From Methylocella sp. (GTDB taxonomy: Bacteria > Pseudomonadota > Alphaproteobacteria > Rhizobiales > Beijerinckiaceae): a DNA stretch of 64,000 nucleotides. Shown one piece after another: positions 1,621 through 40,099 of this stretch (within the stretch, counting starts at the first letter, position 1; each line of letters begins with the position of its first letter). A model generated the notes under the pieces. That model did no database searches. It was not told where the DNA came from and was given only the letters and a program-made list of their open reading frames with translations. The DNA is taken from contig JBBCGG010000001.1 in NCBI GenBank assembly GCA_037200525.1, forward strand, positions 1,778,501 to 1,842,500, given 5' to 3'. The translations under genes and the position numbers were made by a program.

Positions 1621-2100
1621 ATGCATATCGGGACGATTGTCGCCGCGACGCTTTTGAGTATTGCCGCGGGCTCCGCCTCCGCCGCCTCAGTGACGAAAAG
1701 CATTGATGTCAACGCCCCGCCGGCAAAGGTGTGGGCGATGATCGGTCCGTTCTGCTCGATCAGCGCTTGGCATCCGGCCATCGGCACGTGCACTTCGGAT
1801 GGTAAGCCGGAGCCAACCCGCACGCTCGTCACCAAAGATGGCGCAGCTACTTTTGTAGAGCTGGAGACCGCCCGCGACGACAAAGGGATGAGCTATTCCT
1901 ACGCCATCAAGTCAAGCCCGCTGCCGCTCAGCAATTACCTCTCGACGATCAAGGTCGTTCCCAAGGGCGACGGCATGTCGACGATCACCTGGTTCAGCAC
2001 TTTCACGCCGGTGAGCGGCAAGGAAGCTGATGCGGACACCGCCGTTAGCGGCATCTATCAATCCGGCCTTGACGCGGTGAAAGCCAAAGCCGCCATGTAG
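1621..2100 (+). CDS. Secreted SRPBCC (START/Bet v1-like) protein
   Basis: The 159-residue product begins with a clear signal peptide (MHIGTIVAATLLSIAAGSA, cut after ASA). An SRPBCC fold follows: the opening strand SVTKSIDVNAPPAKVWAMIG is typical of polyketide cyclase/dehydrase-type lipid-transport proteins, and the C-terminal helix is SGIYQSGLDAVKAKAAM. I chose the ATG at 1621 over in-frame ATGs at 1570 and 1606 because a GGGAG ribosome-binding site sits 8 bp before it and the signal peptide then starts correctly. Probable role: binding a hydrophobic ligand in the periplasm. No operon partner is evident. Confidence 0.75.
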   Translation: MHIGTIVAATLLSIAAGSASAASVTKSIDVNAPPAKVWAMIGPFCSISAWHPAIGTCTSDGKPEPTRTLVTKDGAATFVELETARDDKGMSYSYAIKSSPLPLSNYLSTIKVVPKGDGMSTITWFSTFTPVSGKEADADTAVSGIYQSGLDAVKAKAAM

Positions 2101-2522
2101 GAAGCGTAAGGGCCACCATCCCTCGCTTGCCTTGGGTTCGCCATCGCCTGACCGCGGCTTATGACGCCTCGGCTGCGGAAGTCTTCGCGAATCCCGCCGG
2201 TTTCGGCTGGACTCGCTTGCATCGCAGCCGCAGGAAACCGCCTTCCCGAAACCGCCAGAACATGATGTCGGAAATTACCCAAGCGCTGGTCACACCCCGC
2301 GAGCGTGACCGGCGAAGTGGCGTGCCGCCGGCCAGCGCGACGACATCCACTGCTTGACCGCCATTGAATAGATAGACGAAACGACGTTTGAACCTGCGGC
2401 CGTCACTCATTGGAGTTGAGCGGAACTGCTCTACGGCCAAATGACTGACGGCGAGAGCACCTGGCTACTGGCTGGATGACTCCGCTCTTCGTAAGCGCGA
2501 CCGCTCAACTAAAGAACTATCC
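2101..2522. other. Intergenic, no supported gene
   Basis: About 420 bp between the SRPBCC gene and a convergent small secreted-protein gene. Short open frames exist on both strands but show no ribosome-binding site, signal peptide or family pattern. No convincing terminator or repeat was seen. Confidence 0.5.
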
Positions 2523-2753
2523 TTAATCGTCGTGGCAGATTTCGAGCGTGTCCAACGATGGCGTCCCCTCGGGCGTCGTTGAAGGCTCACCCCGCGTGCA
2601 ATTGTTCCTCGGGACATATTTTTCATTCGCCGGACGTTCTTTCTCTTCGATCGAGCGCCCGGATTGCTCCCTTGGCTCCTCGCTCTGAGCATAGCTGATG
2701 CCCATCGAAGCCGCGAGAAAGACAATGGCTCCAAGCAATTGAATCGTCTTCAT
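2523..2753 (-). CDS. Small secreted hypothetical protein
   Basis: A 76-residue product with a typical signal peptide (MKTIQLLGAIVFLAASMGI, cleavage after SYAQ) and a short, charged mature part ending in GTPSLDTLEICHDD, with two cysteines (NNCTRG and EICHDD) that could form a disulphide. A GGGGGAGAAAATC ribosome-binding site precedes the ATG. The C-terminal GTP-x-LD...IC pattern is echoed in the small secreted protein at 14,484-14,738, suggesting a distant paralogous pair. Function unknown. Confidence 0.6.
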   Translation of the reverse strand: MKTIQLLGAIVFLAASMGISYAQSEEPREQSGRSIEEKERPANEKYVPRNNCTRGEPSTTPEGTPSLDTLEICHDD

Positions 2754-2953
2754 GATTTTCTCCCCCTATTTAAGACAGGCATCCTCCCCAGAAACCCGCG
2801 CAAATAAACGATCCGAACAAGGAATAGTTCCGCTTCGGCTGATATTTAATATCATTTGGTGACGGATTACCTGAAGTGAAATTAAATTTCGCTTCGGGGC
2901 AGTCGCCGCCGAAGACGTTTTGCGCTTCGGTTCGTGAGAACTGCTGATGCCTC

Positions 2954-4318
2954 TCAACCGGCCCTCCGGCGGCCCGAGCTAGCTCGCCCGAATCTGGCTG
3001 AAGCCGAGCAGAATCGCGGGATGAACATTCTTGGAATGATCAGGCCAAAGCCCATCGCCAGAGTAATGAGGAACGCCGTCATTCCGTCCTTGAACACCGC
3101 AGGGAGCAGACCGAAAGGAGCGCGCCCATCGAGAGTCATCAGTTCGGCGAGGCCGCCCGCCATTTGGAAGATGAAGACGCCCGGTATCAGCGACACCACC
3201 GACGCGAAGGCGACCGCCGCGAAAGGCAGCCGCAACCGATCCGCGGCCTGCGTGGTGATAATCCCCGCCACAAGGCAAGCGACGAACGCTCCAGCCTCAA
3301 CGCTGGCGCCTAATGCCGAGATCATGCCCCAGCGGCACGCATGGGCGAGCATTCCGACAAGAATCGGGATCGGCAGCATCCGCCACGGCATTGAGAAAAA
3401 TGCGCCATATGCCGCAACGGCGACGCCGGCGGCGGCCACGTCACACAGAAACGGAGCCGAGCTTGAAGACTCTGAAACGGGCACGGTCACGCCGCCGAGC
3501 GAAAGACCAAGGAGCAAACCCGCGCAAATCATGAGAATGATCAGGCTCGCATAGCCAATGCGCGCCGCCCCAAGCACAATGCGCGTCCGGGCAAGATCAA
3601 GCATGCCATTGAGGAGATGCGGGCCGGGCACCAGCACCATGCACGGACATACCGCGATAAGGCGCAACGAAGGGCTGAGATTAAATTTTGCGACGATCGC
3701 GCCAATGACGCCGGCAAGCAATGCGGCGCACAAAGGCGGCGCGAATGGACTGGCGGTTACCTTTGCCACTCCGCGCCGCAGAACAGCGCCCGCCCCCGCG
3801 CTGAACGCGATCAGAATAAGGCTAAGCGGGTCAGCGGCGCCAAAGATGACCCCCAGCGCCGCGGCTCCAGCGGCCGCCAGCAATGCGAAACGCACAATCG
3901 AGACGGGCGGATATTGCGTGATCGCCTCAAGATCCGATCGCGCCGCTTCGGCATTGATCCGCCCATCGCGGAGATCGTCGATCACATTCATCGTCGCTGC
4001 GACTTTGTTCATGTCGACGCCTGTGGGCGCGACGGCGATAATCTCGAAATGGACGCCGGCGTCGTCCTCGATGCGGAGGGTCAACTCCCCCCAATGCGGA
4101 AAGAGAATCGCCTGAAAGCCCAGAGCCTCGGCGAGATGCGTTGCGGCCGCCGCCATTTGCTCAGTCGTCTGGCCGTTGACCATTAGAAGCCTGAGGCAGG
4201 TCAGGATCAGATCCGCGGCGTCTTTCCGCGACAGCGTTGCACAAGAAGGCGCGGCTGCGGGATCCCGCGGCGCATCGGGCGAATGCGCGGCGTTTCTCCC
4301 CGCGTCGGAATTGCTCAT
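2954..4318 (-). CDS. ThrE-type threonine/serine exporter family protein
   Basis: This 454-residue membrane protein has the layout of the ThrE (DUF1212) family: a soluble N-terminal domain with the LRLLMVNGQTTEQMAAAATH helix and the VAPTGVDMNKVAATMNVIDDL stretch, followed by about ten hydrophobic segments. Family members export threonine, serine or small dipeptides from the cytoplasm by proton antiport. Here both halves (ThrE and ThrE_2-like) are in one polypeptide. Its start lies 18 bp after the fumC stop on the same strand, so it is probably co-transcribed with maeA and fumC. The substrate is inferred from the family only. Confidence 0.8.
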   Translation of the reverse strand: MSNSDAGRNAAHSPDAPRDPAAAPSCATLSRKDAADLILTCLRLLMVNGQTTEQMAAAATHLAEALGFQAILFPHWGELTLRIEDDAGVHFEIIAVAPTGVDMNKVAATMNVIDDLRDGRINAEAARSDLEAITQYPPVSIVRFALLAAAGAAALGVIFGAADPLSLILIAFSAGAGAVLRRGVAKVTASPFAPPLCAALLAGVIGAIVAKFNLSPSLRLIAVCPCMVLVPGPHLLNGMLDLARTRIVLGAARIGYASLIILMICAGLLLGLSLGGVTVPVSESSSSAPFLCDVAAAGVAVAAYGAFFSMPWRMLPIPILVGMLAHACRWGMISALGASVEAGAFVACLVAGIITTQAADRLRLPFAAVAFASVVSLIPGVFIFQMAGGLAELMTLDGRAPFGLLPAVFKDGMTAFLITLAMGFGLIIPRMFIPRFCSASARFGRASSGRRRAG

Positions 4319-5876: not shown

Positions 5877-7574
5877 TTAACCCCGCTTTTTATAGGGCCG
5901 ATAGCGCGGCTCCCAAACATGGGCGCGGATGCGCTCGGCCAAGGCCGCGTCATCGCAGGGCTCGGCAAGGCCATCCGCTTGCGCTTGGCGCGCAACTGCT
6001 GTCGCGACCGCAACCGCCACCGCGCGCAATTGATCCACAGAAGGCAGCAGCGGCCCGTTCTTGTCGTTCTTTGTCGGGGATAATTCGGCCACAGCCTTGC
6101 CGGCTGCCGCAAACATAGCGTCGTTGATGCGGCGCGCTCCAACGGCCAGGACGCCAAGGCCCACGCCGGGAAAAACGTAAGAATTATTGGTTTGGTTCAT
6201 CGGTACCGGCTTGCCATTCCATGTGACTGGCGGAAAGGCGGTTCCCGTGCCAATCAGCGCCCGCCCATCGGTCCATGCCAAAAGTTGCTCCGGCGTCGCC
6301 TCGCTGCGCGATGTCGGATTCGACAGCGGGAAAATCACGGGGCGGTCGACGTTTGCGGCCATAGCGCGCACGATCGGTTCGTTGAAGGCGCCGCCCTGGG
6401 CTGAGACGCCGATCAGCGCCGTCGGCTTGGCGTTCACCATGACGTCGAAAAGACTGATCTCATTTGGCTTGGCGAGCGTCCAGCCGGCCACGGCTTCCCG
6501 CGTCTGAACAAAGGGCGCCTGCGCGGGGCGAATGCCCGACATGCCTTCGACAAGCAGCCCGTCGCGATCGACGGCATAGAAACGGCTCCTCGCCTCGGCC
6601 TCACTCAAGCCGCCTTCGATCATCGTCCGCAGCAAAAGCGAGGCGATCCCGCATCCCGCAGAGCCCGCGCCGAGAAAGGCGATCCGTTGATCCGTCAGCT
6701 TTACGCCCGTCACATTGATCGCGGCGAGAAGCGTCGCGGCGGCGATCGCCGCCGTGCCCTGGATATCGTCGTTGAAGGTGCAAAGGCGATCGCGGTAGCG
6801 CTCGAGGAGGGGACCGGCGTTGGGCCCGGCGAAATCCTCCCACTGCAGAAGAACGTTCGGCCAACGCTCGGAAACGGCGGAGACGAACTCCTCGACAAAA
6901 GCATCATATTCGGCGCCGCGCACCCGCTCGTGCCGCCAGCCGATATAGAGCGGATCGTCCAGACGATCCTGATTGTTGGTTCCAACGTCGAGAAGGATGG
7001 GCAAGGTTTGATTGGGATGAATTCCGGCGCAACCCGTATAGAGGGAGAGTTTGCCGATTGGGATCCCCATGCCGCCGGCCCCTTGGTCTCCAAGCCCCAG
7101 GATGCGCTCGCCATCGCTGACGACAATGATGCGAACGGCGTCCAACCGCGAATCGGCCAGAATTTCGCGGATGCGCCGCTTGTTCGGATAGCTTAGAAAC
7201 AATCCGCGCGGCTTGCGCCAGATCTCGCTAAAACGCTGACAACCCTCGCCGACCGTCGGCGTGTAGGCCAATGGCAATATCTCCTTGAGATTGCCTACCA
7301 GCAACGCGTAAAACAGCGTTTCATTGGTGTCCTGCAAATCGCGCAAGAAGGCGTAACGTTCAAAATTCGTCTCAAAAGCGCGCAAGACTTTAAGCCGCCG
7401 CGCCATCTGCTGGTCGAGCGAGCCGATGTGCGGCGGCAACAGCCCATGCAAATGGAAAAGATCGCGCTCCTCTTCAGTGAAAGCGGTTCCTTTATTGAGC
7501 ATGGGTTGGTTGATCAAAGCGAAGCCGGTCAGATCAGTCTCGAGAGGGGAGTCCATGCTAGGGGCTGTCGTCAT
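5877..7574 (-). CDS. maeA: NAD-dependent malic enzyme
   Basis: Oxidatively decarboxylates malate to pyruvate, with NAD the likely cofactor. The 565 residues match the length of the SfcA/MaeA single-domain class, not the longer MaeB type with a phosphotransacetylase tail. Visible motifs include the tyrosine region [12 protein letters not shown], the malate-binding [12 protein letters not shown]-like loop ([20 protein letters not shown]), the metal-site [10 protein letters not shown], and a Rossmann loop [21 protein letters not shown] lies 5 bp before the ATG. The gene is followed by fumC, so fumarate to malate to pyruvate conversion may be co-expressed. Cofactor specificity is family inference. 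Confidence 0.93.
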
Positions 7575-8106
7575 TGTACTTTTTCCTGACTACGCGCCGG
7601 CCAAAATCCGGGGCCGCGAACAAGGCGGATAGCGCGATCGGTTCCATCATCGTTCAGACCGTGCGAAGATGCGCCGCCCGCGCTGTCTGCGCACGCACCT
7701 CCTCGCACAACATGGCGTCGTCGATCAAGGAATGGCCACAGGATGTCAGTTGCTTTTGTTTGGGGAGCAGCGACGTTAAAACCCGCCGCTCCAGCTTAGC
7801 CTTGCTACAGCGTTGCGCGATTCTAACGCCAATGTGACCGAAGCACAGCGCGGCGATGCCAGACGCGTTTTCTATACAGCAGAGTTCGTTACCTGCACCC
7901 ACATGAAATTAGCATTAGGTCGGCGCTCACGCAATTAACGCATGTCTTAATCAGCTAACTCATGGCGCGGAGCCGGTAATCGTGGTTGATTGACGCCTCG
8001 GCTTTCGATACTTGCAACCATAACTTCTGATGGCGTCCCGATTGCGGTTCTGCATAATGGCCGCTCTGCCTTGAGATGCCTGCATCAGAATTAAAGGAGC
8101 TCGATC
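7575..8106. other. Divergent intergenic region maeA/poxB
   Basis: About 530 bp between the divergently transcribed maeA and poxB. It must hold both promoters. The last 200 bp before poxB are comparatively AT-rich. Short open frames here lack initiation signals. I could not define a specific operator. Confidence 0.5.
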
Positions 8107-19542: not shown

Positions 19543-19610
19543 GCGTTAAGCCTCTGATTTGTTTGGTACCGCCACCCCGGCTCGAACGGGGGACCTCTAG
19601 ATCCACAATC
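19543..19610. repeat. attL: duplicated 3' half of tRNA-His plus flank
   Basis: This 68-bp segment matches 40,002-40,069 in direct orientation with a single mismatch (C at 19,554 against T at 40,013). It carries the tRNA-His 3' half, from the anticodon loop to CCA, plus about 20 bp beyond. The 5' half of the tRNA is absent here, so it is a target-site remnant and not a functional tRNA gene. Confidence 0.9.
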
Positions 19611-19742
19611 AGACAAATCCATTTATCATCCCTTCTCATATTTTACCAAAGCACGACAGTATACCAAGCGATTTGAGTGGGTTAGGCCAAAGCAGCATCC
19701 CAAAACGTATCAACCAAAAACATCCGTTGACATAGGCCATGT

Positions 19743-19760
19743 GTTGCCCCATTGTTGCCC
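19743..19760 (+). promoter_or_regulatory. Candidate integrase arm-type sites, left end
   Basis: Two copies of GTTGCCC(C) at 19,743 and 19,754 (11-bp spacing) lie just before the integrase gene. A matching pair (12-bp spacing) occurs next to the right attachment site at 39,946-39,965. Paired short repeats near both ends are what arm-type integrase sites look like. They could also bind a repressor of the integrase promoter. Confidence 0.45.
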
Positions 19761-19782
19761 ATACGGAGCACGGGAGCAATTC

Positions 19783-21042
19783 ATGAAAGAAGTTTTGACC
19801 GACCGCCGTCTGAAGGCATTGGTGCCTGCGCCCCCCGGCGAGCGCGTCATGATTTGGGATGCCGTCGTGCCGAGCTTCGGCGTCCGTGTGACCGACAAGG
19901 GTTCGGCCACGTTCGTCATCATGCGCCGACTCGGCGGGAAGCTTATTCGCCGCAGCATTGGGCCTGCTTGGCAGGTTCCCCTTCGCGGCCCTAAGGAATT
20001 GCCAGTCGGGCTGGCCGTGGCGCGAGAAGAGGCGCGGTCGGCGCTTTTTGACATAACGAGGGGAGTCGACCCCAAGGAAAAAAGGCGCGCCGAGCGGAAC
20101 GAAAAACAAAAACAGCAGGAAAACAGCTTCGGTGTCGTCGCCGAGGCCTTCATCGCACAGCACGTCAAAAACCTGCGATCGGCAGCTAACGTCTCATCAG
20201 CAATCAGGCAGAAGCTCATCCCCGCGTGGGGCGATCGGCCGATTAGCGATATCACTCGATCCGACGTTATCAAAATCGTTAAGAAAGACGCGGAGGCACA
20301 TCCGACTGCGAGCCGTCACCTTTTGGCCTATTGCAAAAAGCTGTTTGGATGGGCTGTGGCCCAGGACTGTTATGGGCTAACCGCCTCGCCATGCGACCGC
20401 GGCGTCACCGCTTCAGATTTGATCGGTAAGAGCGAGCCTCGGGCTCGCGTTCTTGGCGACGCCGAGCTCCGGGCGATTTGGAGCGCATCCTCACGGCTCG
20501 GCTATCCATTCAGCGACTTCATGCACTTCTTACTTCTAACTGGTCAGCGCTTGCGCGAAGTCGCGAATGCGGAATGGCGTGAGGTCGATCTCGATCGGGG
20601 CCTTTGGACGATTCCCGCAGGTCGGATGAAAGGCAAGGTTGCGCACGAAGTTCCATTGGCCCCCGAGGCCCTAGCTCTACTCAGTTCGTTGCCGCGGGGC
20701 ACCGGACCTTGCGTTTTCTCCACAACCGGCGGCCATCGTCCTGTTTCTGGATTTTCGAAAGCCAAGGCTCGGCTGGATAAACTTTTGGATAGCGAAGTGG
20801 AAAACTGGACCTTCCATGACCTCCGACGCACTATGCGTACCCACTTAGGCGGACTGCCGGTGCCGACGAACGCCGCCGAGCTCGTCATCGCGCACGCTCA
20901 GCCGGGGCTGCATAAAGTCTATGATCGCCACACCTATCGCGAGGAAAAGCGGCGTGCGCTGGAGCTTTGGGCGAAGCGTCTTTCGTCGATCGTTGAGACC
21001 AAAGAATGCCTTGCCGTTGCGCCTTATCTGGCAAGGGTATGA
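19783..21042 (+). CDS. int: P4-type tyrosine-recombinase integrase of the island
   Basis: Catalyses site-specific integration and excision at tRNA-His. The 419-residue protein has the N-terminal Arm-DNA-binding domain (DUF4102: TDRRLKALVPAPPGERVMIWD), a SAM-like core-binding domain (about residues 110-200), and a C-terminal catalytic domain with the first Arg in LLTGQRLREV, the HxxR box in HDLRRTMRTHL, the second His in IAHA and the nucleophilic Tyr in VYDRHTY. The ATG at 19,783 has GGGAGC upstream; an in-frame GTG at 19,741 lies inside the repeated GTTGCCC sites and is less likely. The downstream gene overlaps by ATGA. Confidence 0.92.
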   Translation: MKEVLTDRRLKALVPAPPGERVMIWDAVVPSFGVRVTDKGSATFVIMRRLGGKLIRRSIGPAWQVPLRGPKELPVGLAVAREEARSALFDITRGVDPKEKRRAERNEKQKQQENSFGVVAEAFIAQHVKNLRSAANVSSAIRQKLIPAWGDRPISDITRSDVIKIVKKDAEAHPTASRHLLAYCKKLFGWAVAQDCYGLTASPCDRGVTASDLIGKSEPRARVLGDAELRAIWSASSRLGYPFSDFMHFLLLTGQRLREVANAEWREVDLDRGLWTIPAGRMKGKVAHEVPLAPEALALLSSLPRGTGPCVFSTTGGHRPVSGFSKAKARLDKLLDSEVENWTFHDLRRTMRTHLGGLPVPTNAAELVIAHAQPGLHKVYDRHTYREEKRRALELWAKRLSSIVETKECLAVAPYLARV

Positions 21043-24864: not shown

Positions 24865-25092
24865 ATGAATTCCCCGTCCGCCATTTCCCCCTCGGTTCAG
24901 GACAGCGAAGAGGGCAACGACGCCTCGGATCGGTCGGCGCAAAATGAGGCATCGCGGCTCGCGGTGCAGCAGGCGGGGCACATTGACACCCGTAATCCGA
25001 GGAAGCTGTCGCGGCGTCGGGCAAGGCGACAGCCTTGTCCGGCCCGGACATTCAAGGGCGTAGCTCTCCGGGGGTTCGTGCTCACTCGATGA
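24865..25092 (+). CDS. Small low-complexity island ORF
   Basis: A 75-residue frame with a polar, acidic first half and an Arg-rich second half (NPRKLSRRRARRQ). It ends in an ATGA overlap with the terminase start, which supports it as a real gene. No family recognised. It could instead be an untranslated leader. Confidence 0.35.
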   Translation: MNSPSAISPSVQDSEEGNDASDRSAQNEASRLAVQQAGHIDTRNPRKLSRRRARRQPCPARTFKGVALRGFVLTR

Positions 25093-26537
25093 ACATCATT
25101 GAAGCCATTGACGACGAGCGCTTGCTCGGGTCCGCCATTCGTGACCCCGAGTCGTGGCGGCCCTGGCGCGCGCTGCTGGCGGCTCTCTTCGGTTTGCCGC
25201 TAGATAGTGACGGCGCGGGCCTTTTTCGGCAGTGTACGGGCCGCGCTGAGCTTCCGTCAGCCGCATTCGGCTTTCTGTGGCTAGCCATTGGCCGGCGCGG
25301 CGGAAAGACGTTCGCCATGGCCGTCATGGCGGTCTACATCGCCGTGTTCAAGGACTGGGCGGATAGCCTATCGCCAGGCGAGCGTGCGGTCGTGCTATCA
25401 GTCGCCGCCGATAGAGAGCAAGCGAAGATCCTGAGGCGCTATATCTCCGGCATCCTATCGTCTCCGATCCTGTCGCAACACGTCGAATCGGAGACGGCGG
25501 ATTCGATCGAGCTCCGTGGCAATGTCATCGTTGAAGTGGTGACCTGTTCGTATCGCACCACCCGTGGGCGTTCGGTTTGCTGCGCCTTGCTCGATGAGGT
25601 CGCGTTCTGGCGCTCCGAAGGGTCGGCCAGCCCAGATTTTGAAGTCTTCACCGCCATTCGCGCATCGATGGCAACGTTTGGCGACGAAGCCATGATGGTC
25701 ATTGCTTCTTCGCCATACAGCCGTCGCGGGTTGCTCTGGGACGCCCACCGCAAATATTACGGCAAAAATGACCCGCGGAACCTGTTTTGGCAGGCTGCGA
25801 CACGTGTGATGAACCCGTCCGTCCCGCAAAGCTTCATTGACGCGGAGTTTGAGCGCGATGCCGCCTCGGCGGCGGCGGAATATGGGGCGGCGTTCCGCAC
25901 CGACCTGGAAGCATTCGTATCTCGCGACGTCATCGACTCTTGCATCGAGCCAGATTGCCACGAAATCGGGCCTCAGCATTCCATCGGTTACGTTGGGTTT
26001 GTCGACGCCGCAGGTGGCTCTGGATCGGACAGCATGGCGATGGCCGTAGCTCACGCCGAGGGCGAGGTTGCCGTCCTCGATTGCCTGCGCGGAGTGAAAC
26101 CGCCGTTCTCGCCCGAAAGCGTCGTCGCTGATTTCGCCGAAACGCTGAAGCGCTATGGCATTCGCCGGGTTACGGCTGACCGATGGGGCTCGGAATTCGT
26201 GACTGAGGCCTTCATGCGCCACGGCATTGTTTGCGAGCAATCTGCGAAACCGAAATCGGATCTATATCGCGAGCTGCCTTTGCTGAATTCCAGCAAGGCT
26301 CGATTGCTTGATCATCCGGTTTTGATTGCCGAGCTATGCAATTTGGAACGTCGTACCGCACGCGGCGGCCGTGACAGCATCGACCATCCGCCGTCTCAAC
26401 ATGACGACTATGCCAATAGCTGCAGCGGCGCGCTCACTCAAGCCGTTAGCGGGCAGCGGTCTTTCCGTCGTGCATCAATCGATGCGGCGTTCAGCGCCGA
26501 CGTCAAACCCCTCCGACTGGAGCTGCCAACTTGGTGA
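25089..26537 (+). CDS. Terminase large subunit-like ATPase/nuclease
   Basis: The 482-residue protein has the two-domain layout of phage packaging motors. The ATPase domain carries a Walker A-like AIGRRGGKTF (about residues 66-75) and a Walker B motif CALLDEVAFW. The C-terminal RNase-H-like nuclease carries acidic positions in VGFVDAAGGSGSDSMAMAV, RVTADRWGSEF, and PSQHDDYANS. In a phage it would cut and package DNA; no portal or capsid gene follows, so on this island it may redirect packaging by a helper phage. The ATG at 25,089 overlaps the upstream stop; an in-frame TTG at 25,035 is less likely. Confidence 0.85.
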   Translation: MNIIEAIDDERLLGSAIRDPESWRPWRALLAALFGLPLDSDGAGLFRQCTGRAELPSAAFGFLWLAIGRRGGKTFAMAVMAVYIAVFKDWADSLSPGERAVVLSVAADREQAKILRRYISGILSSPILSQHVESETADSIELRGNVIVEVVTCSYRTTRGRSVCCALLDEVAFWRSEGSASPDFEVFTAIRASMATFGDEAMMVIASSPYSRRGLLWDAHRKYYGKNDPRNLFWQAATRVMNPSVPQSFIDAEFERDAASAAAEYGAAFRTDLEAFVSRDVIDSCIEPDCHEIGPQHSIGYVGFVDAAGGSGSDSMAMAVAHAEGEVAVLDCLRGVKPPFSPESVVADFAETLKRYGIRRVTADRWGSEFVTEAFMRHGIVCEQSAKPKSDLYRELPLLNSSKARLLDHPVLIAELCNLERRTARGGRDSIDHPPSQHDDYANSCSGALTQAVSGQRSFRRASIDAAFSADVKPLRLELPTW

Positions 26538-28863: not shown

Positions 28864-29256
28864 ATGGGAAGCAGCGGGTCCGGAAGAATTAGCGATTATC
28901 CAGGTTCGTCATCACAGGACCAACCTGGCGGTGGGGCCGGTAGCAACGGCGGTCCTCCCGAGGATCGCTGTGCCCGCGCATTTAGCGTGCGCTTAGAGGA
29001 CGTCGAGCAGTCTGACCACTATCTGGCACGCGGGTCGGCCCCGTCGGTGGGTACGCGATTGGAAGTAGTTCAACGCAAACGGCTTGTTGCTCAGGCCGCG
29101 AACGGGGAAAGCGTCGGTAATCTCCCGACGTCGCACAATTACCTTGCCTCATGCCTGAGCGCCGGGTGGAAGTACGTCGGGGCAGTCCAAGGTGTCTCTA
29201 ATGGTCCGCCGGTAATTTTCATATCGGCTGATTTCGCCGCGACGTCTCCTCCATGA
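28864..29256 (+). CDS. Small protein with MGSSGSG N-terminus, candidate modification substrate
   Basis: A 130-residue protein. The first ~33 residues are Gly/Ser-rich and disordered, beginning Met-Gly-Ser-Ser-Gly-Ser-Gly, so Met removal would expose an N-terminal glycine. The rest is a compact domain (CARAFSVRLEDVEQSDHYLA, then VGTRLEVVQRKRLVAQ, then ESVGNLPTSHNYLASCL) with a beta-rich pattern that I cannot assign to a family. It is the first gene of four with 4-bp overlaps and has a strong GGGGGAGAGG site. In Qat and type IV CBASS, QueC-like enzymes have been reported to attach a deazaguanine to the N-terminal glycine of a partner. By analogy this may be the partner here (inference). Confidence 0.7.
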   Translation: MGSSGSGRISDYPGSSSQDQPGGGAGSNGGPPEDRCARAFSVRLEDVEQSDHYLARGSAPSVGTRLEVVQRKRLVAQAANGESVGNLPTSHNYLASCLSAGWKYVGAVQGVSNGPPVIFISADFAATSPP

Positions 29257-30581
29257 GCACACAGCAATCGGCCCCACTTTTGGTTGGCGAAATCTTCGTC
29301 GATTTTACGGTGTCCGAACATGGAGCTGAGAACAAGCTAAGACTTGGTGGCATTACGCATGCCGCGCGCGGCTTTTGGGCGCTCAATGCGCCATTCAGTG
29401 CCGCGGTCATTTTGCCAGGTTATTTAGAAGTCTTAGCGCGCAACTATTTCGTCGCCCTCGGTTGCGTCGATTTCTATGTGGTGGGGCGCGTCCACGGCGC
29501 GCCGAACGTTACAGTGATTCTTGATGCGACCGAAGTCGCGGACCAAGGATATGACACGCTGCTGCGTGAAGAGAAGACGATTGAGTTATTTTCCGTCGAT
29601 TTCGACCGCGCGTCATGTAAAGATATCTTAATCTTCCCAGGGAGTTATGATCTCGCGAAAGTTTGCGCAACGCTACCCTCGGATGCGCTACTGCATATAG
29701 ACGTTGCTTACGACCTTGATGATCCCAAGATCCTTGCGGAGCTTCCCCAGCGTATTCAGACCATCCTAATCTCAACGTCATCACCGTTGTTCAAATCGGT
29801 CGCTGGCGAGGGCTTTAGCGGTGTAATTGCGGCGTTCGCTTCGTGCCCTGCTGCGACGCTCATCCTTAAAGAGAATCGCGGTGGCGCGAGAATGGTTGTC
29901 GCCGGCAGCACGGCAATAGAAGCATTGCCCGCTCAGCTCGGAACGACGATTAATTCGGTGGGCGTCGGCGACGTGTTCGCGGCCGCGTATGTCGTGCATG
30001 TCGACCGCGGGTACGTTGGAGCAGCTTGGCGAGCGACTTACGCTGCGGCCGCATACTCGCAGACAACCTATCCCGATCTTTTCAAGACATATGTTCAGCG
30101 CGACCTAAAGTTGAGTCTTGATGACATGAGACAGCTTTGGGGCGTATTTTTACCATGGGAGAAGCGGCGCCAATATCAGATTTACCTCGCCGCACCGGAT
30201 TTCAGCACCGCCGATCGGCGCGCATTAGACAAAGCAATCGCTTCTCTAAGCTATCATAATTTCCCCGTCCGGCGCCCCGTTCTCGAAAATGGCGAGTTGC
30301 CGCCCGAATCGGCCCCATTCGCCCTCCAGCAGACTTATCAGGCGGACTATGAGATGCTGAAGCGATGCTCGTTGGTGTTTGCCGTTCCGACGGGGCGAGA
30401 TCCAGGGACGCTTGTGGAAATCGGCATTTCGATCGAGGCCGACATCCCAGTCGTAGTCTACGACCCGGCACGCGAAAACGCGAATACAATGGTGATCGCT
30501 GGTGCGGCGCACTATTCGGCTGATCTAGATGCCTCGCTTAATGCCGTGTTCGAAATTCTATCGCGAGCCTCGGTTCAATGA
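29253..30581 (+). CDS. PfkB-type kinase fused to nucleoside 2-deoxyribosyltransferase-like domain
   Basis: A 442-residue, two-domain protein. Residues 1-290 look like a PfkB/ribokinase-family sugar or nucleoside kinase: the start reads VGEIFVDFTVSEHG, and the catalytic signature NSVGVGDVFAAAYV places the base at Asp240. Residues 306-440 match nucleoside 2-deoxyribosyltransferase/DUF4406-like folds: YQIYLAAPDFSTADR, then ADYEMLKRCSLVFAVPTG, then DPGTLVEIGISIEADIPVV, where Glu389 corresponds to the catalytic glutamate. It could release or exchange a base on a nucleotide and phosphorylate the product. ATGA overlaps couple it to both neighbours. The fusion is unusual; the substrate is unknown. 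Confidence 0.8.
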   Translation: MSTQQSAPLLVGEIFVDFTVSEHGAENKLRLGGITHAARGFWALNAPFSAAVILPGYLEVLARNYFVALGCVDFYVVGRVHGAPNVTVILDATEVADQGYDTLLREEKTIELFSVDFDRASCKDILIFPGSYDLAKVCATLPSDALLHIDVAYDLDDPKILAELPQRIQTILISTSSPLFKSVAGEGFSGVIAAFASCPAATLILKENRGGARMVVAGSTAIEALPAQLGTTINSVGVGDVFAAAYVVHVDRGYVGAAWRATYAAAAYSQTTYPDLFKTYVQRDLKLSLDDMRQLWGVFLPWEKRRQYQIYLAAPDFSTADRRALDKAIASLSYHNFPVRRPVLENGELPPESAPFALQQTYQADYEMLKRCSLVFAVPTGRDPGTLVEIGISIEADIPVVVYDPARENANTMVIAGAAHYSADLDASLNAVFEILSRASVQ

Positions 30582-31204
30582 CGCCCGCGCTACTGCTTTG
30601 CTCAGGTGGTCTCGATTCCACAACGCTAGGGTACTGGCTGCGTGAACGTGAGATTGAGATCCTTCCAATCTTTTTCGACTATGGCCAACACTGCGTCGAG
30701 AAGGAATGGCAGACGCTTAGACGGGTGCTCCCGAGGAAGGACGTGCTCCCAGCGGAACGGATCGACGTCTCCGCCATCTTTCGTGGGTCGAGATCTCGGC
30801 TTATCGTCGAAGCTGATCTGTGGCGCGAGCCAGTCGCTGATGATGATCTATACATACCATACCGCACACTCCTTTTCTTTTCGATGGGAGCGGCATGTGC
30901 GCAAACTCGGGGACTAACCGACGTCTACAGTGGTTTCATCAATAGCAATCACGCTAAGGAATTGGACTGTTCGGCGCGATTTCTGAATGGACTTGATGCG
31001 CTAGCGGAGAGCGTCGGCCCAGTCCGCTTTCACATGCCCTTTCGCTTTTGGTCGAAGACACAGGTGGTGGCGGAGGCGGTGAGGTTGGGCGTTGCGATTG
31101 GTGCTACCTATTCATGTCAATTACTCAGCGACGTTCCTTGCGGAGCATGCCCAAATTGCGTCGAAAGATTAAATGCAATCGAAGCCAACAGAGTAGTCGC
31201 TTGA
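30578..31204 (+). CDS. QueC-like 7-cyano-7-deazaguanine synthase homologue
   Basis: A 208-residue member of the QueC family of ATP-pyrophosphatases. It has the PP-loop LLLCSGGLDSTTLGYW (SGGLDS at residues 9-14), the YIPYRTLLFFSMGAA segment near 92-106, and four zinc-ligand cysteines C180, C188, C191 and C194 in CQLLSDVPCGACPNC. Canonical QueC makes preQ0 from carboxydeazaguanine. No queD, queE or folE is nearby, and the operon context (small MGSSGSG protein, NDT fusion, DNA glycosylase) resembles defence-associated QueC enzymes such as QatC or Cap9 rather than tRNA modification. It overlaps both neighbours by 4 bp. Confidence 0.88.
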   Translation: MTPALLLCSGGLDSTTLGYWLREREIEILPIFFDYGQHCVEKEWQTLRRVLPRKDVLPAERIDVSAIFRGSRSRLIVEADLWREPVADDDLYIPYRTLLFFSMGAACAQTRGLTDVYSGFINSNHAKELDCSARFLNGLDALAESVGPVRFHMPFRFWSKTQVVAEAVRLGVAIGATYSCQLLSDVPCGACPNCVERLNAIEANRVVA

Positions 31205-31881
31205 CCTCCTCGCCCGGCATCCTAGAGCAACTTGCATTCGCACGCCAAATTGCTGATCACGCTGATCGGCTCGGCGTTCACCGTTGGCCAGTTGCCTCGC
31301 GGGCCGTTTCGGATCACCTCGGTGCGGTGCTTGCTGACTCTGTTCTACAAGCTGGCATGAGCTACCGGACAGTGGTGCGAGTGCGCGTCGAACGAATTAA
31401 ATCACGATTTCCTGACACAGCAACGCTATCTGGCGTTACCGCGCTCATCGACCGTGAAGAGGTCGGCGATTTTCTGCTTTGGAACCACCCCACCAAGTTA
31501 CTACGGTTCGTGATTCTAGCACAATTCCTGGCTGAACAAGGCATTGAAACAACCACTGATCTCAAACGCGGGCTTGGCGTTAGCGGCATACGAGAGGGTT
31601 TGCTTGAATTGCATGGCATCGGTCCGAAGACTTACGACTATCTGTGTTGTCTAGTTGGTGTCGACTGCATCGCAGTCGATCGACACGTCAAGACGTTTGC
31701 GAGCGAGGCGGGGGTGTCAGTCAGCGACTACGAACACCTCAAATCGATTGTTTCTTGGGCGGCGGATCTGCTCGGCGTGGCACGCCGGGACTTCGACGCC
31801 TGGATCTGGCGGACTATTTCGGCTCGTAGAGCGAGCAATGGTCGTAAGCGCCAAGCTGGACCCATATGGCGGAGCGTCTGA
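31201..31881 (+). CDS. HhH-GPD DNA glycosylase, 3' end altered by IS66
   Basis: A 226-residue protein with a helix-hairpin-helix LHGIGPKTYDYL (about 137-148) followed by VDCIAVDRHVKTFA. Lys143 and Asp160 sit where endonuclease III/OGG1-type bifunctional glycosylases have their catalytic pair, so base excision with lyase activity is possible. No 4Fe-4S cysteine cluster is seen. The start is a TTG overlapping the QueC stop (TTGA); upstream ATGs inside queC are alternatives. An IS66 insertion at 31,844 replaced the last five original codons (read on the far side at 34,359-34,375, ending in TAA) with twelve IS-derived residues, so the protein is nearly complete. Confidence 0.8.
   Translation: MTSSPGILEQLAFARQIADHADRLGVHRWPVASRAVSDHLGAVLADSVLQAGMSYRTVVRVRVERIKSRFPDTATLSGVTALIDREEVGDFLLWNHPTKLLRFVILAQFLAEQGIETTTDLKRGLGVSGIREGLLELHGIGPKTYDYLCCLVGVDCIAVDRHVKTFASEAGVSVSDYEHLKSIVSWAADLLGVARRDFDAWIWRTISARRASNGRKRQAGPIWRSV
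31836..31843. repeat. IS66 target-site duplication, left copy
   Basis: CAATGGTC at 31,836-31,843 is repeated exactly at 34,351-34,358. Eight base pairs is the duplication size expected for the IS66 family. Confidence 0.9.
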
Positions 31882-31930: not shown

Positions 31931-32320
31931 ATGTCTGCGCATAGGTCTAGGGATAGAAGCTTCCATATGATCGAGGTGCTTCCTGATCGTCTTGAGGGAG
32001 CACCGTCGCAGCTGCGGCGGCGATGGTCGGACGAGATCAAAGAACAGGCCGTAGCTGCATCTCTGGTGCCTGGAGCGAATGTCTCGGCGATCGCCCGAGG
32101 CATCGGCATCAGTCCCGCGCAGCTTTTTGATTGGCGGCGCATGGCCTTACGTAAGGGATCGGCCAGCCTGCCAGCGCCACCGGCGGATGCATCTCTTGAA
32201 GTCACGCAGCCCACGCCTTGCGTTATCGAAATTGTTGTCGGCGGCGTTGTCATCCGCGCGGATGCGACGGCCGACGAAACACATTTGCGGCGCGTGATCC
32301 GCGCGGTTCGTTCGGCATGA
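31931..32320 (+). CDS. tnpA: IS66 accessory protein TnpA
   Basis: A 129-residue protein with a helix-turn-helix typical of IS66 OrfA: RRRWSDEIKEQAVAASLVPG, then VSAIARGIGISPAQLFDWRR. It is needed for IS66 transposition. The stop overlaps the tnpB start (ATGA). The family start may be the ATG at 31,967 rather than 31,931. Confidence 0.9.
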   Translation: MSAHRSRDRSFHMIEVLPDRLEGAPSQLRRRWSDEIKEQAVAASLVPGANVSAIARGIGISPAQLFDWRRMALRKGSASLPAPPADASLEVTQPTPCVIEIVVGGVVIRADATADETHLRRVIRAVRSA

Positions 32321-32661
32321 TCCCATCGGGCGTCAAAGTGTTTCTGGCAAGTCACCCGATCGATTTTCGCAAGGGCGTAGACGGTTTGCTGTCCCTGGTC
32401 CGTGACAGCGGCAGCGATCCATTCGATGGCGCGCTTTACGTCTTCCGTGCAAAAAGGGCCGACAGAATCAAAATTGTATTTTGGGATGGATCCGGCGTTT
32501 GTCTTTATGCGAAACGTCTTGAGAAAGCGCAGTTTTGCTGGCCGAAGATCGGGCATAGCCGGATTCAACTCAACCAGGCTCAGTTAATGGCGCTGGTCGA
32601 TGGGATGGACTGGAAACGCGTTCACGCGGTGGCAGTGAAACGGCCGGAGTTTGCTGGATAA
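32317..32661 (+). CDS. tnpB: IS66 accessory protein TnpB
   Basis: A 114-residue protein with the characteristic IS66 OrfB pattern: IPSGVKVFLASHPIDFRKG, then FDGALYVFRAKRADRIKIVFWDG, then GVCLYAKRLEKAQFCWP. Start overlaps the tnpA stop. It acts with TnpA and TnpC. Confidence 0.93.
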   Translation: MIPSGVKVFLASHPIDFRKGVDGLLSLVRDSGSDPFDGALYVFRAKRADRIKIVFWDGSGVCLYAKRLEKAQFCWPKIGHSRIQLNQAQLMALVDGMDWKRVHAVAVKRPEFAG

Positions 32662-32726
32662 AACGCCTGCGACAGAGTGAATCGGGCGTTTCAATAGGGC
32701 GGCAATCGCGGGCAAAATGTGCTCTT

Positions 32727-34328
32727 ATGAGCCCCATGGTAGTGCCTGGCTCCAAGCTCCCCGACGACGTTGATGCGCTCAAGGCCATGGTGTTGGCCAT
32801 GACTGAAAAAGCGGCTCGCGCGGAAGCTCTTGAAGCCGAAGTTGCCGATCTCAAAGCCTTGAATGCGAGCGCCGACGAACGCATCGCGCGACTGACCTCC
32901 ATCCTCAAGGCATTGGAACGGGCAAGGTTCGGGCGCCGCTCCGAGAAGCTTGGCTCGAAAGCTCTTGATGACGAACAGAGTGCCTTCGTCTTCGACGAGA
33001 TTGAAACGGGGATCGGAGCCATCCAGGCCGAACTCGACAAGCGGCCCAGTCCCGATAAGGCCAAACGAGCCGCACGTCCCCGCAAAGGTTTTGCCGCCCA
33101 TCTCGAGCGGCTCGAAATCGTCATCGAACCGGACACTCTTCCCGAGAATGAAGGCAAACAGAAGATCCTGATCGGCGAAGATGTCTCCGAGCGGCTCGAT
33201 GTCACGCCGGCCAAGTTCCGCGTCATCGTCACGCGCCGGCCTAAATACGCATTCAAGAATGAGGATGGTGTCATCCAGGCTCCAGCGCCGGCCCATATCA
33301 TCGAGGGCGGCGTTCCGACGGAAGCTCTCCTGGCGCTTATTGCCGTTTCCAAATATGCCGATGGCCTGCCGCTTTACCGGCAAGAGGCCATCTACACGCG
33401 CGACAAGGTGGAACTCAATCGCGCCCTGATGGCCCAATGGATGGGCCGGCTCGGGTTTGAACTTGAGATCCTCTCTGAACACGTCCTCACCCGGATCAAA
33501 CAGGCGGAAAGAATCTTCGCCGACGAAACGACCTTGCCGACCTTGGCGCCCGGTTCCGGCAGCACAAAGACAGCCTATCTCTGGGCCTATGCGAGAGACG
33601 ATCGCCCCTTTGGCGGCAGCGGCCCGCCGATGGTTGCCTATCGCTTCGAAGATAGCCGGTCTGGCGATTGTGTCGCCCGTCATCTCGGTGGTTATAGGGG
33701 CATTCTGCAGGTCGACGGATATACGGCCTACAATCGCCTCGCGAGGCCAGACCGCGGCAATGACGCCGTCACGCTCGCGGGATGTTGGAGCCATGTCCGG
33801 AGACGATTTTACGAACTGCACGTCAATGGCAGCTCCGAGCTTGCCACGGCTACGATTGAACGCATGACCCATCTATGGGAGGTCGAGGAAAACGTCCGGG
33901 GCAAAGAGCCAGAAGTGCGCGCTGCGGCCCGGCAAGAAACTGCGGTGGCGATCGTCGCTGATCTGTTCAGGCTTTGGCAAGATGCGCTCCCACGTATCTC
34001 CGGCAAGTCTAAGCTCGCCGAGGCGATACGTTACGCCATCTCACGCCGGGCGACGCTCGAACGCTTCCTGAATGATGGCCGCATCGAGATCGACTCCAAC
34101 ATCGTAGAGCGTGCAATCCGGCCGCAAACAATCACACGAAAAAACTCACTCTTCGCCGGCAGCGATGGTGGAGGCCGTACTTGGGCATCCATAGCCACAT
34201 TGCTGCAAACTGCAAAAATGAACGACATCGATCCTCAGGCCTGGCTCACCCAGACACTCGAGCGCGTCGCAAACGGCTGGCCCAATGCCGAAATCGATGC
34301 CCTCATGCCCTGGAAATACGCCGCCTGA
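32727..34328 (+). CDS. tnpC: IS66 transposase TnpC
   Basis: The 533-residue DDE transposase. An N-terminal leucine-rich coiled coil (VLAMTEKAARAEALEAEVAD) is followed by a zinc-finger-like region and the catalytic core, with acidic positions in FADETTLPTLAPG, ILQVDGYTAYNRL and RIEIDSNIVERAIRP. The C-terminal segment DPQAWLTQTLERVANGWP is also typical. It appears intact, so the element could be active. Confidence 0.95.
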   Translation: MSPMVVPGSKLPDDVDALKAMVLAMTEKAARAEALEAEVADLKALNASADERIARLTSILKALERARFGRRSEKLGSKALDDEQSAFVFDEIETGIGAIQAELDKRPSPDKAKRAARPRKGFAAHLERLEIVIEPDTLPENEGKQKILIGEDVSERLDVTPAKFRVIVTRRPKYAFKNEDGVIQAPAPAHIIEGGVPTEALLALIAVSKYADGLPLYRQEAIYTRDKVELNRALMAQWMGRLGFELEILSEHVLTRIKQAERIFADETTLPTLAPGSGSTKTAYLWAYARDDRPFGGSGPPMVAYRFEDSRSGDCVARHLGGYRGILQVDGYTAYNRLARPDRGNDAVTLAGCWSHVRRRFYELHVNGSSELATATIERMTHLWEVEENVRGKEPEVRAAARQETAVAIVADLFRLWQDALPRISGKSKLAEAIRYAISRRATLERFLNDGRIEIDSNIVERAIRPQTITRKNSLFAGSDGGGRTWASIATLLQTAKMNDIDPQAWLTQTLERVANGWPNAEIDALMPWKYAA

Positions 34329-40001: not shown

Positions 40002-40069
40002 GCGTTAAGCCTTTGATTTGTTTGGTACCGCCACCCCGGCTCGAACGGGGGACCTCTAGATCCACAATC
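40002..40069. repeat. attR: right direct repeat, overlapping tRNA-His
   Basis: The 68-bp partner of the repeat at 19,543-19,610. Its right 47 bp are the 3' half of the intact tRNA-His gene, so integration restored the tRNA with element-supplied sequence. Confidence 0.9.
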
Positions 40070-40099
40070 TAGCGCTCTAACCAACTGAGCTATGGCGGC
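40023..40099 (-). tRNA. tRNA-His (GTG anticodon)
   Basis: A 77-nt cloverleaf read on the minus strand. The acceptor arm is GCCGCCA/TGGCGGT, the D arm is GCTCAGTTGGTTAGAGC, the anticodon arm is CTAGA-TTGTGGA-TCTAG with anticodon GTG, the T arm is CCCCG-TTCGAGC-CGGGG, and the encoded end is ACCA. The base before position 1 is C, so G-1 is not templated, and the discriminator is A73 rather than C73. This departure from the universal tRNA-His identity is known in a clade of alphaproteobacteria. It is the integration target of the island. Confidence 0.95.

Follow-up and report, generated by a model that had tools for sequence, protein, structure and literature searches.

A mobile four-gene cassette of a tailed HIRAN-like protein, a PfkB-deoxyribosyltransferase fusion, a QueC-like ligase and a DNA glycosylase is a candidate nucleobase-conjugation system

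Within a 64,000-nucleotide stretch of a Methylocella sp. genome (contig JBBCGG010000001.1, positions 1,778,501 to 1,842,500; henceforth the window), four genes form a compact cassette that an earlier note, made from the DNA letters, had singled out as a candidate undescribed system for defence or nucleobase conjugation. The four open reading frames (ORFs) span positions 28864-31881, all on the (+) strand and chained by a 4-bp overlap at every junction, exactly as that note had placed them. The cassette encodes:

28864..29256, + strand: gene 1, 130 residues with an MGSSGSG start; a tail (residues 1-30, MGSSGSG...SDYPG) followed by a HIRAN-like domain (about residues 32-127); putative conjugation substrate
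29253..30581, + strand: gene 2, 442 residues; a PfkB-type kinase (about residues 1-300) and a nucleoside 2-deoxyribosyltransferase (NDT, about residues 307-430)
30578..31204, + strand: gene 3, 208 residues; a QueC-like PP-loop ATPase with SGGLDS, DYGQHC, NSNHAKELDC and CQ(x)6CxxCPNCVxR
31201..31881, + strand: gene 4, 226 residues from a TTG start at 31201; a predicted HhH-GPD (OGG-like) DNA glycosylase/lyase

Gene 3 matches the QueC family of Pfam (PF06508, E=6.4e-31) and the 'QueC' model of PADLOC (9.3e-24), and its PP-loop residues (S9, G10, G11, D13 and S14), YGQ, R96 and four cysteines are kept in 95-97 of 97 relatives, in agreement with the intact PP-loop and zinc cysteines that the earlier note had read. 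The best match of the window protein in the PDB is Cap9 (4.5e-11), ahead of QueC (5.7e-8), and the family profile ranks the two in the same order. According to the available text of two reports, Cap9 is the ligase of the type IV cyclic-oligonucleotide-based anti-phage signalling system (CBASS) that puts a 7-deazaguanine (CDG) on Gly2 of the CD-NTase (PMC13279940, PMC11996544). In the pocket described there for canonical QueC and Cap9, a Tyr stacks on the base and an Asp reads its Watson-Crick edge (PMC13279940). QueC proteins of the window type, which we call clade I, keep this Asp (D130) and carry a Glu (E128) at the place of the Tyr in 96/96 gap-free rows, the equivalence of E128 and Tyr having been aligned by eye. 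The YPDC motif occurs in 0/97 clade I proteins versus 9/10 canonical QueC proteins. The canonical zinc motif C(x)8CxxCxxC is also found in 0/97 clade I proteins, and is a poor separator, matching only 3/10 canonical rows. Neither queD nor queE lies inside the four-gene cassette, and both have matches elsewhere in the host genome. Canonical queuosine synthesis by gene 3 was considered and rejected on motifs and host gene content.

Gene 1 looks, from its N-terminus, like the substrate of the gene 3 ligase. Gly2 is kept in all 91 readable gene 1 proteins, as it is in 75/75 of a smaller set, and the start MGS[S/T]G[S/T/N]G is exact in 74 of 92, while the residues after the tail drift; further on, Cys36 and Cys97 are kept in 92/92. 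An AlphaFold2 model predicts a disordered tail, whose residues 1-3, 10-12 and 14-30 score under 50 in the predicted local distance difference test (pLDDT), and a domain after residue 32 that is mostly above 90. Foldseek against the PDB placed a Lactobacillus protein (3k2y) and HIRAN structures of HLTF on top (probability 1.00, E 2.4e-3 to 2e-2). We label the domain HIRAN-like, as this reading rests on structure comparison, because the structure matches are weak and a Pfam HIRAN match is absent. The HIRAN domain of HLTF binds 3' single-strand ends. Gene 1 is a tail and a HIRAN-like domain and not a base or nucleoside enzyme, which refines the earlier claim that all four products deal with bases, nucleosides or DNA. 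PADLOC gave no matches to gene 1 or gene 2, and a literature search linking HIRAN with QueC had only unrelated papers among the matches listed.

The two remaining genes encode the fusion and the glycosylase that had been proposed for them. Pfam recognizes the NDT part of gene 2 (PF05014, E=1e-12) and the PfkB part only at E=0.37, and a structure model of the protein (pLDDT 94) matches ribokinases by Foldseek (E=3.5e-13). Catalytic roles are known in their families for the PfkB Asp and for the NDT Asp and Glu: Asp240 of the GVGD motif is kept in 93/94 gap-free rows, and Asp383 and Glu389 are kept in 95/95. General hidden Markov model matches of gene 4 are weak (Pfam HHH_5 0.056, NCBIfam 0.011); in the PDB profile search MagIII (1.8e-4) and an OGG (3.2e-4) rank highest, and the PADLOC 'OGG' model matches at 7.5e-6. 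Lys143 and Asp160, the catalytic pair of HhH-GPD enzymes, are kept in 93/93 gap-free rows. Most relatives of gene 4 also end in a clamp-like motif, Q[LMIF].[LFIVM] (e.g. QLSLEF), found in 73/94 ORFs and 59/80 distinct tails compared with 4/848 internal stretches and 8% of shuffled tails; a narrow pattern used first matched 42/94, and the broader one was picked after seeing the tails. The consensus for clamp binding is given as QL[S/D]LF or QxxLF in the available text of PMC12309361.

We scanned 84,980 species genomes with a gene 3 profile and obtained 103 relatives, of which the best 80 were kept and joined by others from viral contigs; after removal of 10 duplicates, 97 loci were examined (80 genome, 17 viral), some of them still near-identical (e.g. 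L064-L066). Profile searches found QueC in 97, PfkB-NDT in 95, the small protein in 92 and the glycosylase in 93 of these loci, and all four genes in 88/97 (74/80 genome loci), in a single order and on a single strand. This conserved order is more than chance, and the co-conservation elsewhere, on which the earlier note had staked its proposal, is what we found. Carriers belong to the Pseudomonadota, Bacteroidota, Bacillota and Acidobacteriota and include phage contigs. Nine loci are incomplete: five lie at a contig edge (L015, L022, L025, L099 and L104), L018 is broken, with a dGTPase fragment fused to the end of an NDT gene remnant, gene 1 was not recognized in L076, and two Bacillota loci (L089 and L091) lack the glycosylase, two of whose four misses are contig ends. 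Within the 88 complete loci, gene 2 of L007 and gene 4 of L043 are split into two pieces each. At L091 (Ureibacillus, 1976-3940) PfkB-NDT and QueC form one natural open frame. Among the 87 loci with complete coordinates, a 4-bp overlap is present at junction 1 in 33, at junction 2 in 48 and at junction 3 in 9, as counted from script-chosen starts. A DNA search of E. coli genomes with the Kosakonia cassette gave no matches, and among annotated phages 209 records have QueC matches, all below 60% identity and at most 33% among the best 20 of the 209.

The cassette is mobile. In the window it lies inside an island of about 20.5 kb at tRNA-His, bounded by exact 56-bp repeats:

19555..19610, no strand: left attachment repeat, 56 bp, a copy of the 3' part of tRNA-His
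19741..21042, + strand: tyrosine integrase of the island (PF00589, E=8.2e-15), adjoining the left repeat
25035..26537, + strand: terminase-large-subunit-like gene of the island (phrog_2, E=1.6e-21)
40014..40069, no strand: right attachment repeat, 56 bp, identical to the left copy and overlapping tRNA-His
40023..40099, - strand: tRNA-His, the integration site

Two of ten same-genus genomes (G170 and G188) join the left flank, tRNA-His and the right flank within about 5 kb, as an empty site would, and others match the tRNA with the right flank. Across a sample of the host family, gene 3 occurs in 1/248 genomes at E<=1e-30, the window's own. The island proposed by the earlier note therefore stands, and its lack of queD and queE is to be read beside host matches to both, and to a canonical queC, outside the window; folE was not searched. 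Elsewhere the cassette sits on a phage contig with portal/protease genes on one side and genes for the tail terminator and tape measure on the other (L101), ahead of terminase and portal genes (L105), and on plasmids. Three ORFs at 31931-34328 of the window, starting about 50 bp past the glycosylase gene, resemble what we take to be an IS66-type element.

The neighbourhood of the cassette is partly defence-like. With a simple ORF caller we took the two nearest neighbours per side within 2.5 kb at 69/80 genome loci. The other 11, which include the dGTPase-bearing L055 and L064-L066, had been set aside by eye as near-duplicates; of 131 nearest-neighbour ORFs, two were removed as pieces of gene 2, and one such piece (L022) was kept. 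PADLOC identifies a dGTPase in eight of the 129 nearest flanking ORFs and gives further matches to Septu, HEC-01 and type I restriction-modification models (best 25 of 433 families); among the 104 second-nearest ORFs, 8-10 match AAA models of the GajA, PtuA, AriA and NsnB type (best 25 of 405 families). The dGTPase-like genes stand beside 8/69 clade I loci, on various sides. Genes of this kind occur near both clades of QueC loci (L018, L027, L030, L031, L049, L055, L059, L061, L064-L066 and L085; and, in clade II, introduced below, L118, L120 and L140). We also observed that four Bacteroidota loci (L068, L070, L071 and L073) have in common a pair directly upstream of gene 1, an AAA ATPase of about 430 residues and a protein of about 165 residues.

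Two further operon groups were reached by tblastn of plasmids with gene 3 and an archaeal PfkB-NDT. Thirteen loci (L109, L117-L124, L126, L138, L140 and L141), henceforth clade II, encode a small tailed protein, PfkB-NDT and QueC, and an OGG-like gene lies near the operon in 6/13. Ten of their small proteins begin with MSG or MSS, two from haloarchaea with MGGG and one from a third haloarchaeon with MCGG, and 8 match the gene 1 profile at 3e-10 to 4.5e-3, some of them weakly. A nitroreductase is annotated in two loci and a dGTPase in or beside three (L118, L120 and L140), two being annotated as anti-phage dGTPase; Dam genes were seen near some of these operons. On a Roseivivax plasmid (L119) a Vut_1 importer, annotated as queuosine salvage, lies downstream of the operon at 7501-8040. 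In a QueC tree of 19 clade I proteins including that of the window, 11/13 of clade II, 2/3 of the Rhizobiaceae group described below and 10 canonical proteins, clade I (support 100/99) is separate from clade II (100/100), with the canonical group at 84/91; the branching order between the groups is unsettled because Cap9 and QatC sequences were left out of the tree. The zinc motif published for PF06508 Cluster 4, CH(x)5CxxCxGCxK, is present in 9/11 clade II and 0/97 clade I proteins. Clade II is probably this Cluster 4; it is only probably so because the other motif, YGQ(x)6E as printed, matches no protein of either clade (0/11 clade II proteins, all of which have YGQ(x)5E, and 0/97 clade I proteins).

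The second group consists of three Rhizobiaceae plasmid operons from Rhizobium (L108), Agrobacterium and Neorhizobium (L125 and L139, whose gene content is by annotation), ordered PfkB, TIR protein, an HhH-GPD or unnamed gene at the glycosylase place, QueC, and again a TIR protein. The C-terminal part of the first TIR protein of the Rhizobium operon matches Cap10 (E=1.9e-8), and the second TIR protein starts with MGGG in L108 and L125. These operons appear to be the TIR-based equivalent of tagging in type IV CBASS, and the Rhizobium operon links the QueC/PfkB cassettes with type IV CBASS.

Given the anatomy and co-conservation of the cassette, its conserved active sites and acceptor tail, its mobility and its partly defence-like context, we consider it somewhat probable, while well short of assured, that it is a QueC-based system for N-terminal nucleobase conjugation that travels on mobile elements and most likely defends against phages or rival elements. 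Both halves of the original proposal thus find support: the chemistry would follow from homology, and a defence role is probable from the patchy spread, the carriage on phages and plasmids, the defence-gene neighbours (counted without background) and the homology to type IV CBASS. In the mechanism that we propose, gene 1 would lose its Met, exposing the amine of Gly2, and gene 3 would adenylate a nucleobase and join it to this amine, as Cap9 does to the CD-NTase. PfkB-NDT may then act on or read the conjugated base, taking the place of the transglycosylase-family Cap10. The HIRAN-like domain and the glycosylase, clamp-tailed in most relatives, would direct the complex to the replication forks and 3' ends of the invader's DNA, which would be blocked there through cutting by the glycosylase/lyase or through base exchange.

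A bolder form, which we regard as doubtful, is that defence works through a whole nucleotide built on the N-terminus of the HIRAN-like protein. The QueC ligase would load Gly2 with a base, in many hosts one other than CDG, the NDT would put deoxyribose on the protein-linked base, taken for example from deoxyguanosine freed by neighbouring dGTPases, and PfkB would add the 5' phosphate; HIRAN and the clamp-bound glycosylase would then present this protein-linked nucleotide to DNA 3' ends at the fork. The cassettes would accordingly belong to a modular superfamily with exchangeable substrates (CD-NTase, TIR, HIRAN-like and clade II tail proteins) and exchangeable base-handling enzymes (Cap10 and NDT).

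Several observations weigh against conjugation for defence. None of the Foldseek matches of gene 1 to HIRAN reached E<0.001, and Pfam HIRAN matched 0/75 gene 1 members. The window glycosylase and that of its nearest relative (L016) lack the clamp-like motif. PADLOC matched none of the 10 other scanned ORFs of the window island, the defence-neighbour counts stand without a matched background, and many further neighbours belong to ordinary metabolism. In clade II most substrates begin with MSG, exposing Ser and not Gly, and the QueC of the Rhizobium operon is nearer to canonical QueC (3e-17) than to Cap9 (1.3e-13). The identity of the base is a further difficulty. We profiled 45 carrier genomes, hand-chosen and mostly isolates (the window's and 44 from the 80 loci), and found QueE in 32 (E<=1e-8), a QueD-family protein in 35 and canonical QueC in 27 (E<1e-50). 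By profile search 12/45 carriers have neither QueE nor canonical QueC, and ten of these 12 have no QueD either; CDG is therefore probably not made there, which speaks against a simple repeat of what Cap9 does. In those 12 hosts, to judge from gene content, either the base would be another one or the operon would be silent. Six more carriers, all Bacteroidota, have no canonical QueC and do have QueE-like matches, and one genome (G042) has QueC and QueD with QueE unmatched, so the QueE model misses some genomes. Eleven of the 12 have a Vut_1 importer, the window genome has none, and TGT is present in 13/13 genomes searched. In view of these 12 carriers, and of the invariant Glu in place of the stacking Tyr, the base may be one other than CDG.

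Other explanations of the cassette must be set against conjugation for defence. A salvage operon, in which PfkB-NDT remodels purine nucleosides, QueC modifies a free deazapurine and the small protein serves as carrier or regulator, is the way in which the related cluster is interpreted in the available text of PMC13329287, and it fits both the kept catalytic residues of NDT and PfkB and the Vut_1 importer near one clade II plasmid operon. We nevertheless hold it to be distinctly unlikely, as it leaves unexplained the Gly2 tail, the DNA glycosylase, the HIRAN-like domain and carriage by phages, an island and plasmids at a frequency of 1/248 in the family. Less likely still, and in our judgement very improbable, is a second, relocated set of genes for queuosine/preQ0 or DNA deazaguanine: the PF06508 match of gene 3 would suit it, whereas YPDC is missing from all 97 clade I proteins and present in 9/10 canonical ones, the host retains its own queC, queD and queE elsewhere, and the cassette contains no other gene of such a pathway.

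Two alternatives keep the conjugation and change its purpose. Possibly, though we would not expect it, the NDT is the effector, so that the tagged HIRAN-like protein senses DNA and the NDT destroys the nucleotide pool in an abortive infection, with the glycosylase as an auxiliary. The invariant Glu389 and Asp383 and the dGTPase-like genes beside loci of both clades are consistent with this, but the fused kinase would be superfluous for simple depletion, and a glycosylase kept in 93/97 loci is hard to reconcile with an auxiliary. We give a similarly small chance to the view that conjugation serves the mobile element itself, in replication, repair, counter-defence or superinfection exclusion, and not the defence of the host. 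The presence of the cassette among the structural genes of a phage (L101), on plasmids and in an island would agree with such a service, and the HIRAN-like domain, the clamp-like motif and the glycosylase point to DNA replication or repair. Against it, some loci adjoin known defence genes, and homologous parts act in defence in type IV CBASS and Qat, as the available text of PMC13279940 and PMC11996544 has it.

QueC-made protein tags are a recent find, with one proven case (Cap9) and one strongly suspected (QatC) in the accounts available to us. If conjugation for defence is the correct reading, another widespread family, with a simpler substrate (a HIRAN-like protein of 130 residues) and with nucleoside enzymes, would show that the tag is a module of general use that can be exchanged, and would provide a compact setting for learning its role. 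That QueE and canonical QueC are missing in about a quarter of the carriers tested turns the identity of the attached base into a testable question, and the related cluster that is at present classed as purine salvage would gain a function to test. In a literature search with most subscription journals and preprints outside its coverage, and hence as weak evidence of novelty, we found no phage-related system of QueC, NDT and glycosylase and no description of operons of QueC, TIR protein and glycosylase; for PfkB and NDT in phage defence it returned PMC13329287 alone, to judge from the text available.

How does the cassette compare with known systems? Its gene content fits neither Qat nor type IV CBASS, as the earlier note had held. 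That it is undescribed holds only in part, since the pairing of QueC with PfkB-NDT is already in print, interpreted as purine salvage, for PF06508 Cluster 4 (Libby et al. 2026, PMC13329287, in the text available). Like this cluster, the clade I loci have a PfkB (PF00294-PF05014) neighbour, a PfkB-NDT being present in 95/97; and clade II, its probable equivalent, shares with the window a PfkB-NDT next to QueC, a small tailed protein and, in 6/13 loci, a nearby OGG-like gene. By contrast, the zinc motif of clade II is absent from clade I, and its tail is mostly MSG and not MGS. We considered the window operon as a member of Cluster 4 and rejected it on this motif (0/97) and on the separate clades in the tree. 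As in Qat (qatABCD), the QueC-family enzyme of the cassette is accompanied by a protein whose N-terminal tail is disordered and carries Gly2; the MGTS tail of QatB is essential, and the CD-NTase tail is MGGS (PMC13279940, in the text available). Gene 3, however, is a core of 208 residues only, versus about 400 with N- and C-terminal extensions in QatC, and keeps the pocket Asp where QatC has Thr/Thr; the domain of gene 1 is HIRAN-like and that of QatB helical; and the cassette contains no QatA KAP ATPase or QatD TatD nuclease, nor did PADLOC match any of the 10 other island ORFs.

The Rhizobiaceae operons resemble the cassette in having PfkB, OGG, QueC and an MGGG-tailed partner (the tail in L108 and L125), and differ in having a TIR protein as putative substrate and, for handling the base, a Cap10-like protein and not an NDT. 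In some type IV CBASS an OGG glycosylase is present. The window cassette resembles that system in its Cap9-like QueC, its OGG-like glycosylase and its MG-tailed partner protein, whose Gly2 is the putative acceptor, invariant in 91/91 gene 1 proteins. It departs from type IV CBASS in having no CD-NTase and no Cap10, in whose stead stand the HIRAN-like substrate and the PfkB-NDT fusion, and in a QueC with Glu where the Cap9 pocket has Tyr. With a tailed partner, a QueC ligase, a base-handling enzyme (Cap10 there, NDT here) and a glycosylase in each, the parallel with type IV CBASS is the strongest guide to the mechanism.

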